Shown here piece after piece: positions 5,819 to 45,193 of a stretch of 64,000 nt of DNA. The stretch is from positions 62,001 through 126,000 of the forward strand of contig NZ_KE384548.1 of the NCBI RefSeq assembly GCF_000426625.1. The letters are read 5' to 3'. Each line of letters begins with the position of its first letter. Positions within the stretch are counted from its first letter, which is position 1. The DNA is from Psychrilyobacter atlanticus DSM 19335. Its GTDB lineage: Bacteria > Fusobacteriota > Fusobacteriia > Fusobacteriales > Fusobacteriaceae. The notes beneath the pieces are model-generated. The model did no database searches, had not been told where the DNA came from, and saw only the letters and a program-made list of their open reading frames with translations. Made by a program: the position numbers and the translations under genes.

Positions 5819-5854
5819 CTATACTTTTAGAGCTTAGACTTTGGGTTAGAATTC

Positions 5855-5919
5855 ACTCATAGATACTAATTTAAGGTTAGTCGTAGATACATCGGACCGT
5901 ATTTCCGATTTATATGAGT
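5855..5919 (-). promoter_or_regulatory. Purine (guanine-type) riboswitch aptamer upstream of guaA
   Basis: Minus strand: P1 is ACTCATA/TATGAGT, P2 is CGGA/TCCG with loop AATACGG, J2-3 is ATGTATCTAC, and P3 is ACTAA/TTAGT with loop CCTTAAA. The loops can kiss through GG-CC. J3-1 ends ATCTATG, placing C at the specificity position (C74 in xpt numbering), as in guanine rather than adenine sensors. Guanine binding should favour the terminator and lower guaA expression. Confidence 0.85.
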
Positions 5920-6014
5920 TATATTAATAATAAATTTTAAAGAATATTACCACGTATTTTCACAGTTGTCAACATATTAGAATAATTTAATTTTTCTATT
6001 ATTTAAAGGTGAAA

Positions 6015-13384: not shown

Positions 13385-13503
13385 ATGTTTTCTTCCAAAA
13401 TTATAAAAGAAATCTCTACTTTTTTATTTTTTCCTCATATTTTTGTTATTGACAACAATATTATATTTATGTTATGATTATTGAAATTTATAACAATAAT
13501 CAA

Positions 13504-13572
13504 TAACTCATATAAGCTAGAAATATGGTCTAGTGTCTCTACGGTTAACCTTTAATTAACCTCTATGGGTGA
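13504..13572 (+). promoter_or_regulatory. Purine (guanine-type) riboswitch upstream of guaB
   Basis: P1 is ACTCATA/TATGGGT, then TAAGCTAGAAATATGGTCTAG for P2/L2, the diagnostic GTCTCTAC for J2-3, and GGTTAACCTTTAATTAACC for P3/L3. J3-1 reads TCTATGGGT with C at the specificity position, so guanine or hypoxanthine is the expected ligand. The 160 bases downstream contain CTATGggTGAA/TTCACacATAG pairing and a T run (13634-13641), which could form the switching structure. Low guanine should allow guaB expression. Confidence 0.9.
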
Positions 13573-13719
13573 AAAGTAAAGGCATAAGTCTATACTCTTC
13601 ACACATAGTTTTTGTAGAGGGTGGACTACGGTCTTTTTTTTATACCTTTTTTTAGATGTAATTAAAAACACAGTATGATCATAATAATTTAGTTTTTTAT
13701 CATTTTAATTTCAATATAA

Positions 13720-15192
<1,473 letters not shown>

Positions 15193-15695: not shown

Positions 15696-15910
15696 CTTTT
15701 CCTCCATAATTTATTCTTTTTCTTATTTTATCATAAATTTTTCTAAAAATTATATATATTTAATAAAACTCATCTCCCTTATTAAAATCAAGACTTTTGT
15801 AACAAAAAATTAAAAAACAGAAATTAAATTTAATTATTTTTTGACATACCTTTATAAAAATGTTATTGTTGTATCAATAAAAAAAACAAATAAAAAACGG
15901 AGGTCAAAAT

Positions 15911-16012
15911 ATGAGATCAATAATTAATATTTCTATTGTCATTATAATACTTATAATTATAAACATAGTCAATAATATTAGTTGCGATCTTTATAGTACG
16001 AATTCCGCCTAG
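15911..16012 (+). CDS. Ile-rich leader peptide of the ilv operon
   Basis: 33-codon reading frame behind a strong SD (acggaggtcaaaatATG). Codons 4-23 contain 12 Ile, 2 Val and 1 Leu (MRSIINISIVIIILIII opens it). The last codons overlap AATAATATTAGTTGC (15971-15985), whose ATTAGTTGC is the same as the 3' arm of the downstream terminator and complementary to its 5' arm (GCAACTAAT). A ribosome stalled at Ile codons would expose this segment and disrupt the terminator: classical attenuation. Ile codons ATA and ATT dominate. Confidence 0.85.
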   Translation: MRSIINISIVIIILIIINIVNNISCDLYSTNSA

Positions 16013-16067
16013 TTTTTTTAAAATGATAGTTTTTTAATAAGATTAATTACTTAGGGAAGAGTGGTAT

Positions 16068-16106
16068 AGAAGCAACTAATAATATTATTAGTTGCTTCTT
16101 TTTTTA
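16068..16106 (+). terminator. Attenuator terminator of the ilv operon
   Basis: A 32-base self-complementary stem (AGAAGCAACTAATAAT/ATTATTAGTTGCTTCT) followed by a T run, 55 bases after the leader stop codon and 33 bases before ilvE. Confidence 0.9.
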
Positions 16107-16138
16107 TAAAAAAATAATCAATTCAGGAGGTTATAGAG

Positions 16139-17056
16139 ATGATAAATACTAAAAAAATATGGATGAATGGTGAGATGATCGATCATGACAATGCTAAGGT
16201 TCACGTTTTATCCCATGTAATGCACTATGGAACCAGCTTTTTTGAAGGAATAAGAGCTTATAAAACAGAGGAAGGAACAGCCATCTTCAGACTAGATGAA
16301 CATATCGATAGATTATATAACTCTTGTAAAATATATAGAACTGAGATCCCATATTCTAAAGAGGAGATAAAAAAAGCTATATTTGATACTATCAAAATCA
16401 ACGGTATTAAAACTGCCTATATCAGACCCTTAGTATACAGAGGATATGAATCTTTAGGAGTAAATCCATCTAATTGTCCCATTGAAACCATGATAGCTGC
16501 CTGGGAATGGGGAGCGTACCTAGGAGAAGAAGCCTTGACTAAGGGAGTAGATGTTTGTGTATCTTCTTGGAGACGGTTAGCACCAAATACAATGCCTACA
16601 GCTGCCAAGGCCGGCGGAAACTATCTGAGTTCCCAGCTTATAAAGATGGAAGCATTAGAAAATGGTTACGATGAGGGAATTGCCTTAGATTACTCAGGAA
16701 ATGTCAGTGAAGGAAGTGGGGAAAATTTATTTGTAGTTTCGGGTGGAAAGATCTTTTCTCCTCAATCAGGATCTTCTGCACTTATTGGTATCACCCGGGA
16801 TTCTGTAATAACAATAGCCCGTGACCTAGGTTATGAAGTTGTAGAAGAAACGATTTCTAGGGAATCTCTTTATACAGCTGACGAGATGTTTTTTAGCGGA
16901 ACTGCTGCTGAGATAACACCAATAGCCAGTGTTGACAAGATTAAAGTTGGAATTGGTAAAAGAGGTCCTGTCACAAATGCAATACAAAAAGCCTTCTTTG
17001 AGATGACAGAAGGGAAAAAACCTGAGTATAATTCTTGGTTAACTTATGTAAAATAA
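16139..17056 (+). CDS. ilvE: Branched-chain amino-acid aminotransferase
   Basis: Class IV PLP aminotransferase, 305 residues, final step of Ile/Val/Leu synthesis. [21 protein letters not shown] (split as [18 protein letters not shown]), the PLP Lys in [12 protein letters not shown] and [13 protein letters not shown] with [12 protein letters not shown] are diagnostic. SD caggaggtt. First structural gene of ilvE-D-B-N-C, controlled by the leader attenuator. A candidate parS palindrome begins at the base after its stop. Confidence 0.95.
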
Positions 17057-17118: not shown

Positions 17119-18783
17119 ATGAGAAGTGATGAATTAAAAAAAGGGAGCCAGAGAGCTCCCCATAGATCTCTACTAAAAGCTCTAGGGCTAGTAGATGAGG
17201 AAATTAAAAGACCAATTATAGGAATAGCCGGGTCTTATAATGAAATAGTTCCAGGACACACACATTTAAACCAAATAATTGATGCAGTTAAAACCGGAGT
17301 CAGGTTAGCTGGAGGAGTTCCGCTGGAATTTAGTACAATAGCTGTTTGTGATGGCTTGGCTATGAATCATAATGGGATGAGCTTTTCCCTTCCAAGCAGG
17401 GAGATTATAGCTGATTCTGCAGAGATTAGTGCTACAGCAATGCCATTTGATGCAATGGTATTTATTCCAAACTGTGATAAAGTAGTTCCCGGAATGCTCA
17501 TGGCAGCAGCCAGATTAAATATCCCATCTATTTTTATCAGCGGAGGACCTATGTTGGCCGGTGTATTTAAAGGCAAAAAAATTGGCTTAAGCAATGTTTT
17601 TGAATATGTCGGTGAATATGAAAATGGAACTATGAGCTGTGAGGACTTAACAGAGGCTGAAAATTCTGCCTGTCCAACATGTGGATCTTGTTCTGGTATG
17701 TATACTGCTAACACCATGAATTGCCTTACAGAAGCTCTTGGAATGTCACTATCTGGTAACGGAACTATTCCAGCTGTATTTTCAGAAAGGATCAGACTGG
17801 CTAAAACAGCTGGAATGCAGGTTTTAAAATTATTGGAAGCAGATTTAAAACCTAAAGATATCATGACAAAAGATGCTTTTTATAATGCTATAGCTCTTGA
17901 TATGGCTCTGGGAGGATCTACAAATTCAAGCTTACACCTTCCTGCTATTGCCAACGAATGTGGAATAGAACTAACTTTAAAGGAGTTTGACAATGTTTCC
18001 AAGGAAGTTCTACAGATATGTAAATTATCTCCTTCAGGGAAATATTTTATAGAGGATCTTCATATGGCAGGAGGAATTTCTGCTGTTATGAATGTTTTAC
18101 ATCAAAATGATTGTTTGAAAGAAACTCCTACTGTGATGCTAAAATCCCAGCTGGAAATAGCGGTAGGAAGTAAGGTATTAGATAAAGATATTATTAGAAA
18201 TTTTGAAAATGCCTATTATAAAAGTGGTGGATTAGCCACTCTCTACGGCAATTTAGCAGCTGATGGAGCCATTGTAAAAGCTGGAGCAGTAGATAAAACA
18301 ATGATTAAACATTGTGGCCCTGCCAGAGTTTTTGAAAATGAAGAAGATTCAGTAAAAGCTATCTTAGGAGGACTGATAAAAAAAGGCGATGTAGTTGTCA
18401 TCCGATATGAAGGACCAAAGGGTGGACCTGGAATGAGGGAGATGTTAGCTCCTACTGCCACTCTCGCTGGAATGGGACTGGATAAATATTGTGCTCTTAT
18501 CACAGACGGTAGATTTTCTGGAGCCAGTCGTGGAGCAGCAATTGGCCATGTATCTCCAGAAGCAGCCGATGGAGGAATTATTGGTCTTGTAAAAGAAGGA
18601 GATCTTATAGAGATCGACATCACTAATAGATCTATCTCTTTAAAAGTAGATGATAGCGAACTAGAAAATAGAAAAACTAACTTTAAACCTCTAATAAAGC
18701 AGGTAGAAAGTAGTTACCTCAGAAGGTATCAACAAATTGTTAGTTCAGCCAGCAAGGGTGCTATCGTTTTAAAAAATTATTAA
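17119..18783 (+). CDS. ilvD: Dihydroxy-acid dehydratase
   Basis: Fe-S dehydratase of Ile/Val synthesis, 554 residues. Cluster ligands appear in [10 protein letters not shown] and [46 protein letters not shown] and [23 protein letters not shown] are family signatures. Full length with an SD (taggagactaactATG). The gap to ilvB is 38 bases. Confidence 0.96.
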
Positions 18784-18821: not shown

Positions 18822-20531
18822 ATGAAAAATATCAATGGAGCTAGAATAATTTTAGAAATTTTATATAGACATGATTTAAATACAGTCTTTGGTTATCCTG
18901 GTGGAGCAGTAATTCCTCTCTATGATGCTCTCTATGACTATAAAGAAAAGATCAAACATATTTTTACAAGGCATGAACAGGGGGCTACCCACGCAGCAGA
19001 CGGATATGCCAGAATCAGTAAAAAAACAGGAGTTTCAATAGCAACTTCGGGACCTGGAGCTACCAATACAGTTACCGGAATAATGACTGCTTATATGGAC
19101 TCGACTCCCCTGCTGGTTATTACAGGACAGGTTCCCAGTACAAATCTAGGCAGCGACGCTTTTCAGGAATCTGATATTACAGGAATTTCCCTACCAATAA
19201 CTAAGCATACATATCTTGTGAGAACCATTGAGGATCTTCCCAGAATCTTAAAGGAAGCTATCTACCTCACGAATATAGGAAGACCTGGACCTGTACTGGT
19301 GGATATCCCTAAAAATATCCAGCTGGAAGAGATCTCCTATGAAAAGTTTGAACAACTTTATAGAGATGAAAATAACCCGACTTCTACATACCATCACCTA
19401 TACGATGATTTAAAGAATAAATCTATAGATCTCATGATAGATATGATTAAGGAGAGCAAAAGACCTATTATCCTTTCAGGAAATGGAATTGTTAAATCAC
19501 AAGCCCAGGAAACCTTAAAAAAAGTTATTAAAAAATTTGATATTCCAATGACATCTACCCTCTTGGGATTAGGAACCCTGCCACACCATGATGTCCATAA
19601 CCTTCATATGCTGGGAATGCATGGGACACCCTATGCTAACTATGCTGTAGATGAAGCTGATCTTGTGATAGCTTTGGGGATGAGGTTTGACGACAGAGTT
19701 ACTGGGGATGTTCAAAGGTTTTGTAAAAATGCAAAAATCATACATGTAGATATTGATGAAGCTGAAATAAACAAGATAAAGGAAGTCGATCTGCATATTG
19801 TTGGGGATTTAAACTGTGTACTAAAAAAACTTTTAGAATCAGATTATGAAAAACAGAATCATCAGTGGATAGACAGGATATCAAAGTTAAAAAATAAATT
19901 TCCCCTCTCAAAAGACTTTCCTGTAGATGAGATCAGCCCTCAACACCTAATCTCTAAAATAAGTGAAGTAACTAAGGGAGAAGCTATTGTCTGTACAGAT
20001 GTTGGGCAGCACCAGATGTGGACAGCTCAGTATTATGAATTTAATAAAATCAATAGTATTGTGACTTCTGGAGGGGCAGGAACCATGGGATTCGGATTAC
20101 CTGCTGCCATAGGAGCCAAACTTGCTAATCCAGATAGAGAAGTTGTTGCCATTGTAGGGGACGGCGGATTCCAGATGAACTCCCAGGAGCTTATGACCAT
20201 TTCACAATACAATTTAGATATCAAGATCATCATCGTAAATAATTCATTCCTTGGGATGGTCAGACAATGGCAGGAAATGTTTCACGATAAAAGATATTCA
20301 TTTGTTGATCTAGAAGTGAATCCTGATTTTGTAACTTTAGGAAAAGCTTATAGAATTGATTCATATAGGGTAGAAAATATAACCCTTCTCGATGATATTC
20401 TAAAAAAAGCTTTTGAAGTAAATAAACCAGTATTGATAGATGCCGTTGTTACAAGGGAAGAAAATATATTTCCTATGATTCCACCTGGGAAATCTGTACA
20501 TGAGATGATTTTATCAAAGGAGGATAGATGA
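18822..20531 (+). CDS. ilvB: Acetolactate synthase, large subunit
   Basis: ThDP-dependent catalytic subunit (569 residues). The activating Glu lies in [49 protein letters not shown] and the ThDP motif [13 protein letters not shown]...[13 protein letters not shown] support AHAS rather than the catabolic ALS form. The following small subunit gene overlaps by four bases (ATGA), giving coupled translation. Confidence 0.96.
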
Positions 20532-21013
20532 GAGAATACCAAGTTTTAGTGATTATGAAAGATATTCCGGGGGTATTGTCTAAAATTTCTGGATTGTTTT
20601 CTAAAAGAGGTTTTAATATCAATGGAATTACTTCTGGTGTCAGTGAAAGAGATGGTTTTTTCAGGATGACCATCTCTGTTATAGGAAATAAAAAGATTAT
20701 AGAACAGATAAAAAAACAGGTTGGAAAACTTGTGGATGTAGTAGAAGTACAGATTTTTGACAAAACAAGAACTATCAAAAGGGAATTAATTTTAGTCAAA
20801 ATAAAAACTGACTTTAAAACCCGCAGTGAACTTATTGAAGTTGCTGATATATTTAAAGGAAAAATTATTGATATTGCCCACGAATCATTGATTATAGAGT
20901 TAATTGGAGATCTGGATAAGATCGATGGATTTTTAAAATTAGTCCAAAAATTTGAGGTTTTAGAGATCTCAAGAACTGGAATAACAGCTATGCATAGAGG
21001 AGAAAAACAATAA
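20528..21013 (+). CDS. ilvN: Acetolactate synthase, small (regulatory) subunit
   Basis: 161 residues with an N-terminal ACT domain ([28 protein letters not shown]) and a C-terminal ALS_ss_C domain ([14 protein letters not shown]). It binds branched-chain amino acids for feedback control. SD AAGGAGG lies in the last codons of ilvB. ilvH is the equivalent name in some annotations. Confidence 0.95.
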
Positions 21014-21044: not shown

Positions 21045-22004
21045 ATGAAGGAATTAAAAGTTTTAGAAGGGAAAAAATTAACTGTAATAGGATATGGAAG
21101 TCAGGGTCATGCCCATGCACTTAACTTAAAAGATCTAGGAATGGATATGACAGTAGGATTAAGGGAAGGATCTAAATCTTGGGAACAGGCAGAAAAAACA
21201 GGAGTCAAAGTAAAAAAAATATCAGAAGCTGTAAAAGATGCCGATGTAGTTATGTTTTTAACTCCAGATGAAGCCCAGCCTGAAGTATATGAAAAGGATA
21301 TAAAGGATAATATAAAGGAGGGAGCATATCTAGGTTTTGCCCATGGATTTAATATCCATTATAAAAAAATCATTCCTACTGAAAAAGTTAATGTATTTAT
21401 GGTAGCTCCTAAAGGACCCGGGCATATGGTCAGAGAGATATTTGAAAAAGGACATGGAGTTCCTTGTTTAACAGCGGTATATCAAGATCTAAGCGGCGAT
21501 ACTAAAGAAGTCGCTGATGCATGGGGAAATGGTGTAGGAAGAAAGGTTGGTATAATTGAAACTACCTTTAAAGAGGAAACTGAAACAGATCTATTTGGAG
21601 AACAGGCTGTACTATGCGGGGGAGTTACAGAGCTTATGCAGGCTGGGTTTGATACCCTGGTAGAAGCCGGGTACAATCCTGAAGTGGCATATTTTGAATG
21701 TGTTCATGAGATGAAATTAATAATCGATATGGTATATGAAAAAGGATTTGCTAAGATGAGAGATTCTATATCAAATACTGCTGAATATGGTGATTATGTT
21801 ACTGGTAAAAAAATTATCACAGATAAAACTCGTGAAACTATGAAAGAAGTTTTAGGAGATATTCAAAATGGTAAATTTGCAAAGGAGTTTATAGATGAAA
21901 CAGAAACTGGATATAAATTTATGAACGGGGAAAGATCTAAATATTCTGATTCTAAAATTGAAGAAGTTGGATCAAAGATGAGAAAGATGGTTTTTAAAAA
22001 ATAA
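21045..22004 (+). CDS. ilvC: Ketol-acid reductoisomerase
   Basis: NADP-dependent enzyme of Ile/Val synthesis, class I, 319 residues. The Rossmann motif VIGYGSQGHAHALNL (about residues 16-30), GLREGSKSW for cofactor phosphate and VAPKGPGHMVR are present, as are the Mg ligands in ETETDLFGEQAVLCGG. The N-terminus is about 10 residues shorter than usual: it begins MKELKVLEGKKL, lacking the YYD.D strand. Last gene of the operon. Confidence 0.96.
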   Translation: MKELKVLEGKKLTVIGYGSQGHAHALNLKDLGMDMTVGLREGSKSWEQAEKTGVKVKKISEAVKDADVVMFLTPDEAQPEVYEKDIKDNIKEGAYLGFAHGFNIHYKKIIPTEKVNVFMVAPKGPGHMVREIFEKGHGVPCLTAVYQDLSGDTKEVADAWGNGVGRKVGIIETTFKEETETDLFGEQAVLCGGVTELMQAGFDTLVEAGYNPEVAYFECVHEMKLIIDMVYEKGFAKMRDSISNTAEYGDYVTGKKIITDKTRETMKEVLGDIQNGKFAKEFIDETETGYKFMNGERSKYSDSKIEEVGSKMRKMVFKK

Positions 22005-45096: not shown

Positions 45097-45193
45097 GGAA
45101 GTAGATAGGTAACTGGTGTGCCTACCGGTCTTCAAAACCGAGTTTTGGCGTTTAGTCGTCATGGGTGGGTTCGATTCCCACATACTTCCGCCA
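45097..45193 (+). tRNA. selC: tRNA-Sec (anticodon UCA)
   Basis: 97 bases including encoded CCA. The acceptor is GGAAGTA/TACTTCC. The anticodon stem CGGT/ACCG holds loop CTTCAAA with anticodon TCA. A long variable arm TGGCG/CGTCA follows, then a T arm GTGGG-TTCGATT-CCCAC. The long extra arm, UCA anticodon and extended acceptor/T domain identify Sec tRNA. It shows that the organism can read UGA as selenocysteine. Confidence 0.95.

Follow-up and report, generated by a model that had tools for sequence, protein, structure and literature searches.

The locus examined here raises a simple question: how is an ilv operon of a fusobacterium switched in response to its amino-acid supply? The window (the whole stretch of DNA that was analysed, 64,000 nucleotides of Psychrilyobacter atlanticus DSM 19335) holds ilvE, ilvD, ilvB, ilvN and ilvC in a row, each scoring above its own NCBIfam equivalog cut-off (Table 1). 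Between these genes and the preceding one lies an intergenic region with a short ORF crowded with isoleucine codons, followed by an intrinsic terminator. We are highly confident that this region is a classical ribosome-mediated transcription attenuator that senses charged tRNA-Ile ahead of ilvEDBNC. The surroundings hold other RNA elements as well, namely two purine riboswitches (5840-5937 on the minus strand and 13488-13585 on the plus strand, the latter upstream of an IMP dehydrogenase gene at 13735-15192) and a tRNA-Sec gene (45097-45193, plus strand), which suggests selenoprotein synthesis.

Table 1. Coordinates of the ilv leader, the ilv operon and the Met-run elements (positions are those of the window unless a contig is named).
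Feature	Position	Strand	Description	Basis
Sigma-70-like promoter (putative)	15841-15869	+	TTGACA-17-TATTGT with TG extension	consensus scan
Shine-Dalgarno GGAGG	15899-15903	+	7 nt 5' of leader ATG (-12 to -8)	sequence
Leader ORF	15911-16012	+	MRSIINISIVIIILIIINIVNNISCDLYSTNSA; 33 codons, ATG...TAG, 12 Ile	sequence, shuffle test, relatives
Segment 1 (5' side of the protector, at the ORF start)	15913-15931	+	pairs with 15974-15991	MFE of whole leader
Segment 2, antiterminator 5' arm	15976-15985	+	TATTAGTTGC; pairs with 16072-16081	folding, alignment
Inner antiterminator 5' strands	15988-16006	+	TCT, ATA, TAC, TTCC; pair with 16054-16070	
Leader stop codon	16010-16012	+	inside antiterminator loop; ribosome there covers about 15992-16024 (assumed footprint)	
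Antiterminator 3' strand	16054-16081	+	16072-16081 is segment 3, part of terminator 5' arm	
Intrinsic terminator	16068-16106	+	14 bp, 4-nt loop (16068-16099), then U tract	terminator search, folding
ilvE	16139-17056	+	branched-chain aminotransferase, first operon gene	TIGR01122, 444.9 bits
ilvD	17119-18783	+	dihydroxy-acid dehydratase	TIGR00110, 756.2 bits
ilvB	18822-20531	+	acetolactate synthase large subunit	TIGR00118, 743.6 bits
ilvN	20528-21013	+	acetolactate synthase small subunit	TIGR00119, 170.7 bits
ilvC	21045-22004	+	ketol-acid reductoisomerase	TIGR00465, 432.8 bits
Met-run elements	G000:C2:394856-394945, 1393681-1393784, 1799272-1799412	-, -, +	loci L168-L182	

A leader ORF with a run of isoleucine codons

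A first-pass annotation of this DNA had claimed a 33-residue leader with 12 Ile codons within 20 positions, preceded by a strong Shine-Dalgarno sequence. Both are present, and the run of Ile codons is not chance. All 12 fall inside codons 4-23. Among the window's 433 ORFs that are 20-60 codons long, this density of 12 Ile per 20 codons is the top value, and when the 431-nt intergenic region was dinucleotide-shuffled 20,000 times, no shuffle exceeded 11. The codons used are six ATA, six ATT and no ATC, as against 123 ATC among the 389 Ile codons in ten long ORFs of the window. An SD-like motif stands ahead of all 14 homologous fusobacterial ilvE leaders. Further upstream, a promoter-like site is placed such that the leader would be transcribed. 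Such sites are not rarer in shuffles (5 found, 9.8 expected), which makes the consensus match weak alone; its TTGACA and the stretch AAAAATGTTATTGTTGTATCAAT around the -10 region are invariant in all five loci of the genus.

Comparison within the genus shows how the ORF has changed. Indels among the five relatives are multiples of three in the alignment, and the leader ORFs of the four closest differ at 4, 2 and 7 sites in codon positions 1, 2 and 3, respectively, with four of the variable codons synonymous and five non-synonymous. These counts indicate that the leader peptide is not tightly conserved, as is expected of a leader, and between genera its length and sequence vary freely. Relative to the four closest, the stop codon of the window's leader is shifted two to three codons earlier.

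Mutually exclusive terminator and antiterminator

Downstream of the ORF, the 16-bp terminator stem proposed earlier proved slightly too long, with 14 bp found. The stretch ATTAGTTGC at 15977-15985, put forward as the antiterminator, is present; it repeats the terminator 3' arm exactly and complements the 5' arm. Instead of a single 9-nt match, the antiterminator proves to be a composite hairpin spanning about 106 nt (15976-16081). RNA that spans segment 2 and the terminator 5' arm, with the 3' arm left off, folds into one long hairpin in all five genus loci, at -21.1 to -26.6 kcal/mol. Of 60 alignment cells in the outer helix 59 are paired, as are 63 of 65 for the 13 inner pairs, and in the covariation alignment helices 2 and 3 have 98.6% and 95.0% of cells paired. 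Among the relatives in the genus we looked for loci that lack the antiterminator and found none: in five out of five the leader ORF holds a complement of the terminator 5' arm, and an antiterminator that excludes the terminator is kept in all five ilvE-first loci found in the genus. Segment 2 has a second potential partner, in that the start of the ORF pairs with it and with its 3' neighbour (the 1:2 protector).

Sequence variation in these stems is sparse. One relative (G057) carries a double change, A to C in segment 2 and U to G in its partner; the changed partner base sits in that species' terminator loop, so that the antiterminator alone explains the double change. Covariation is not significant in this set of only five close sequences, where the one double change in 38 pairs is reached by 302 of 500 shuffles. 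One terminator pair also varies: the window and G057 have A-U there, two relatives have G-C and G061 has an A/C mismatch.

Predicted folding with and without a ribosome

The alternative structures were compared in a folding model in which the ribosome was assumed to keep the RNA unpaired from 18 nt before to 14 nt after the first base of the A-site codon. With no ribosome, the probability of the antiterminator pairing, P(2:3), is 0.00-0.12 in all five genus loci. With a ribosome stalled at Ile codons 4-12, it is 0.87-1.0 in four of them, window included, and for the window's own sequence it is also 0.66-0.98 for stalls up to codon 19. In G057 the values are 0.65-1.0 for stalls at codons 10-21 and 0.09 for one at Ile codon 5. 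P(2:3) is near 0 for stalls at codons 13-16 in L003 and L005 and 14-16 in L004 when pairing across the ribosome is allowed, which may come about because the ORF start can pair around the ribosome. Treating the ribosome as a wall removes these exceptions: stalls up to codon 17 or 18 then give 0.98-1.0 in the four loci other than G057, which is still low for stalls before codon 9.

With the ribosome at the stop codon of a truncated transcript, and pairing across it allowed, P(2:3) is 0.00-0.01 in the four other loci and 0.89 in the window. As modelled, the ribosome-at-stop state of the window's exact sequence would thus not clearly exclude the antiterminator. In the full transcript at equilibrium the terminator is mostly preferred (the exception is G061), which implies that the antiterminator must win kinetically. 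An antiterminator that is a kinetic product is what known attenuators have.

Proposed mechanism

The first-pass annotation had proposed attenuation of the enterobacterial ilv/leu type, and the recurrence of leader, terminator and antiterminator in all five genus loci supports it. From these parts we infer transcription start, translation, stalling and a response to isoleucine, in the following order. Transcription would start upstream of the leader. When charged tRNA-Ile is short, a translating ribosome would stall in the Ile run (codons 4-17) and mask segment 1 in the ORF start, leaving segment 2 free. Segment 2 and the neighbouring TATAGTAC/TTCC stretch could then fold with 16054-16081, putting the antiterminator in place while the terminator 3' arm has yet to be transcribed, and RNA polymerase would read into ilvEDBNC. 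When Ile-tRNA is sufficient, the ribosome would pass segment 2 and reach the stop codon within the antiterminator loop; when there is no translation, the ORF start would pair with segment 2. In either of these two states the hairpin at 16068-16099 is expected to form and transcription to end.

Distribution in Fusobacteriota and a second architecture

An IlvE search of 98 fusobacterial genomes gave 26 matches better than E 1e-100, and the 450 nt upstream of all 26 ilvE copies (L002-L023, L097-L100) were inspected under one rule, which asked for an ORF of 12-60 codons that follows an SD and has seven or more Ile, Leu or Val in 12, and for five T preceded by a hairpin with an energy of -8 kcal/mol or better. 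The two features always occur together. Fourteen copies have both, namely five in the window's genus (g1), eight in Cetobacterium-like genomes (g3) and one in G054, and the other 12 have neither. These negative copies include four that stand behind leuB (judged by eye) within a leu operon.

The eight Cetobacterium-like loci and G054 follow a different design. Their leaders (for example MNTKLKFGFLLALIIIILSSSV, and MINVVNRYVLISIIISGRLEE in G054) end ahead of most RNA structures, and their RNA can be read as a relay of five segments with the successive pairings 1:2, 2:B, B:C and C:D, folded here from the RNA downstream of the ribosome only. A stall at Ile codons 14-16 gives the pairing B:C a probability of 0.62-0.82 in eight out of eight Cetobacterium-like loci. 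In G054, the corresponding values are 0.98-1.0 for stalls at codons 10-13, 0.51 at codon 14 and 0.03 at codon 15. A ribosome at the stop codon brings B:C to 0.10 or less in all nine relay loci, and C:D is at least 0.88 in the full transcript. For three of the eight Cetobacterium-like loci, the truncated transcript with the ribosome at stop forms mainly 2:C (0.74-0.81) and not 2:B. A covariance model built on the ilv leader (R1) gave no match to the Cetobacterium-like leaders, whose pairing logic differs. Sister genera thus place two RNA architectures, of four and five segments, ahead of the same ilvE operon, which makes the sensor logic comparable with the controlled genes held constant.

The codon content of the leaders also varies. 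The earlier description of a leader that counts almost only Ile fits this species and three relatives but neither G057, which alternates Ile and Leu, nor the Cetobacterium-like leaders, which combine Leu and Ile. As a separate observation, the Cetobacterium-like genomes (G004-G015) give no strong LeuA match (best E 6.1e-10), and their ilvE leaders have Leu codons beside the Ile run.

Leucine, tryptophan and methionine runs in the same genome

The ilv leader has counterparts ahead of other operons of this genome. Upstream of leuA (identified by family search) lies a leader with ten Leu codons, MILTNILSINLLLLLLLLLLPLGCKQLNRLQMILGKLYTFEHPVLK, followed by two terminators (L131, G000:C2). Across the phylum, 30 leuA loci were taken from 41 LeuA matches better than E 1e-140: a Leu-run ORF with a terminator is present in 11 of them (five in g1, three in g9, two in g8 and one in G054; L131, L133-L143), one (L161) has a Leu-containing ORF without a terminator, and 18 have neither. 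By the rule used, tandem terminators occur in four of the five leuA leaders of the window's genus. Upstream of trpE (also by family search; L164:1194-1452, G000:C2), an ORF with three Trp codons, MIRFTWWWKSDNSTNKIALTRGPGLGNKSIY, is followed by two hairpins that look terminator-like by eye, and this element is likely a Trp leader.

That the ilv and leu attenuators share an ancestor was considered as well, suggested by their layout and by the stretch GGGAAGAGT, which stands ahead of the terminator in both leaders of this genome. R1 matched no leu leader in 98 genomes (E 0.1, strict filters), which leaves such an ancestry undemonstrated.

A further leader, MVNSRIGQLNMLMMMLW, carries a run of Met codons upstream of hom-metY, and a related Met-run element lies ahead of metG and of metN (MetN match 380 bits, below the curated cut-off of 499.7). 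The element is strongly conserved in the window's genus. It has a short ORF whose last residues are RQLNMMMMLWKGL or GQLNMLMMMLW, together with a terminator and a hairpin in which paired changes occur. A DNA search returned 15 matches in eight of the 98 genomes, 13 of the 15 in g1 genomes. The core motif is present in 12 of these 13, one of which (L182) is cut short and lacks the terminator. In Rfam, the element has sub-threshold matches to RF04312 (37.1 and 35.9 bits, cut-off 59). We consider it likely that the elements ahead of hom-metY, metG and metN form a Met-codon attenuator regulon; no description of one was recognised in the titles and abstract openings of the literature searched. HisG gave no match in this genome, which leaves no his operon leader to compare.

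These parallel leaders bear on how the Ile run itself should be read. One might suppose that the terminator controls the operon, that translation matters only generally, through coupling or polarity, and that an AT-rich, hydrophobic peptide has acquired its Ile run as a by-product: the genome is AT-rich (the window has 31% GC), the peptide is hydrophobic, and Leu and Ile are mixed in the Cetobacterium-like leaders. The run nevertheless exceeds what shuffles produce, and within one genome the codon runs fit their operons one by one, with Ile ahead of ilv, Leu ahead of leuA, Trp ahead of trpE and Met ahead of hom-metY, metG and metN, and we regard a by-product as very unlikely.

T-boxes and other readings of the locus

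T-boxes might have been expected here, as the first-pass annotation remarked, an expectation that is only partly borne out. They do occur in the phylum: the T-box model (RF00230) finds 27 places in 20 of the 98 genomes, in two genomes above the family cut-off. Of the genes behind them, family searches of four identified trpE, asnB, aspS and asnS, and the other downstream ORFs, judged by their first residues only, include none that is ilv- or leu-like. The sole match of this genome lies ahead of asnS (G000:C3:1020955-1021128, L001). For comparison, an earlier study (PMC2494555) counts no T-box in two Fusobacteria/Thermotogae genomes.

That the ilv leader itself is a T-box riboswitch or its remnant, reading uncharged tRNA-Ile directly, is a thought invited by these matches in the phylum and in this genome, and by the stretch AGAGTGGTA ahead of the terminator, which by eye looks like a T-box tail and resembles the T-box UGGN stretch. 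We judge it extremely improbable, since RF00230 matches nowhere in the window at its gathering score and, with E relaxed to 5, nowhere in 15700-16150, none of the 98 genomes has a T-box match at this leader, and the suggestive stretch reads GTAG instead of GTGG in four of five loci and is accounted for by pairing inside the antiterminator hairpin. Other Rfam families gave only chance-level matches at the leader, and no Rfam ilv motif matched. The least credible reading, a small expressed membrane peptide gene that has a good SD, a conserved ORF and its own ordinary terminator but no link to ilv control, founders on the complementarity of the terminator 5' arm to the ORF in all five loci, on the lack of ORF and terminator at the four ilvE copies that follow leuB, and on a peptide so variable between genera.

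Discussion

The attenuator ahead of ilvEDBNC is an ordinary mechanism, convincingly present, with good internal controls, in a phylum for which we found no description of it. Leader-peptide attenuation is best known from Proteobacteria and Actinobacteria. A 2010 survey (PMC2965389) states that to its authors' knowledge none had been shown outside these two phyla before their own Firmicutes case. In the literature searched, represented in part by excerpts, no description for Fusobacteriota was found; two papers (PMC8632094, PMC4833913), in the passages seen, name Fusobacteriota in other contexts. A likely source, Lopatovskaya 2010, is known to us only through its citation in PMC10272879, and we do not claim priority.

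Of greater interest than the ilv attenuator is the pattern across the genome, and most of all the Met-run element. Tentatively, and with somewhat less than even confidence, we propose that attenuation is a major amino-acid sensing strategy of this deep-branching lineage, in which Ile, Leu, Trp and Met would each be read by a ribosome-based sensor of its own: the attenuators of ilv and leu may be duplicates retuned to Ile and Leu, the Met regulon may have spread to three operons, and the T-box may have been kept for asnS. With Ile, Leu, Trp and Met runs side by side in a single genome, specificity can be tested directly.

Several known systems offer points of comparison. To our knowledge, T-boxes use no leader peptide. 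They also sense tRNA charging through a choice between terminator and antiterminator, but the T-box covariance model (RF00230) has no match at this leader. The six-segment his attenuator of Salmonella and E. coli works by the same logic as the ilv relay of the Cetobacterium-like genomes and G054, with Leu and Ile in place of His, whereas the window's genus has a simpler four-segment logic. The present leader resembles in layout the enterobacterial ilvGMEDA, ilvBN and leuABCD attenuators, with which it shares a leader peptide rich in codons for the product, protector, antiterminator and terminator segments, and an operon of the same pathway. It differs in containing almost only Ile, whereas Ile is joined by Val and Leu in the E. 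coli ilv leader, and in a composite 106-nt antiterminator that encloses the leader stop codon; it also belongs to another phylum, and the likeness is one of layout, with no sequence similarity claimed. Finally, the Corynebacterium ilvB-II, ilvB-OMG and Leptospira ilvB motifs, as described in PMC10272879, lie in other phyla, have ilvB as their first gene and give no Rfam match here, but they share with the leader described in this study a uORF with branched-chain codons before ilv genes, a terminator with its antiterminator, and attenuation as the proposed mode of control.
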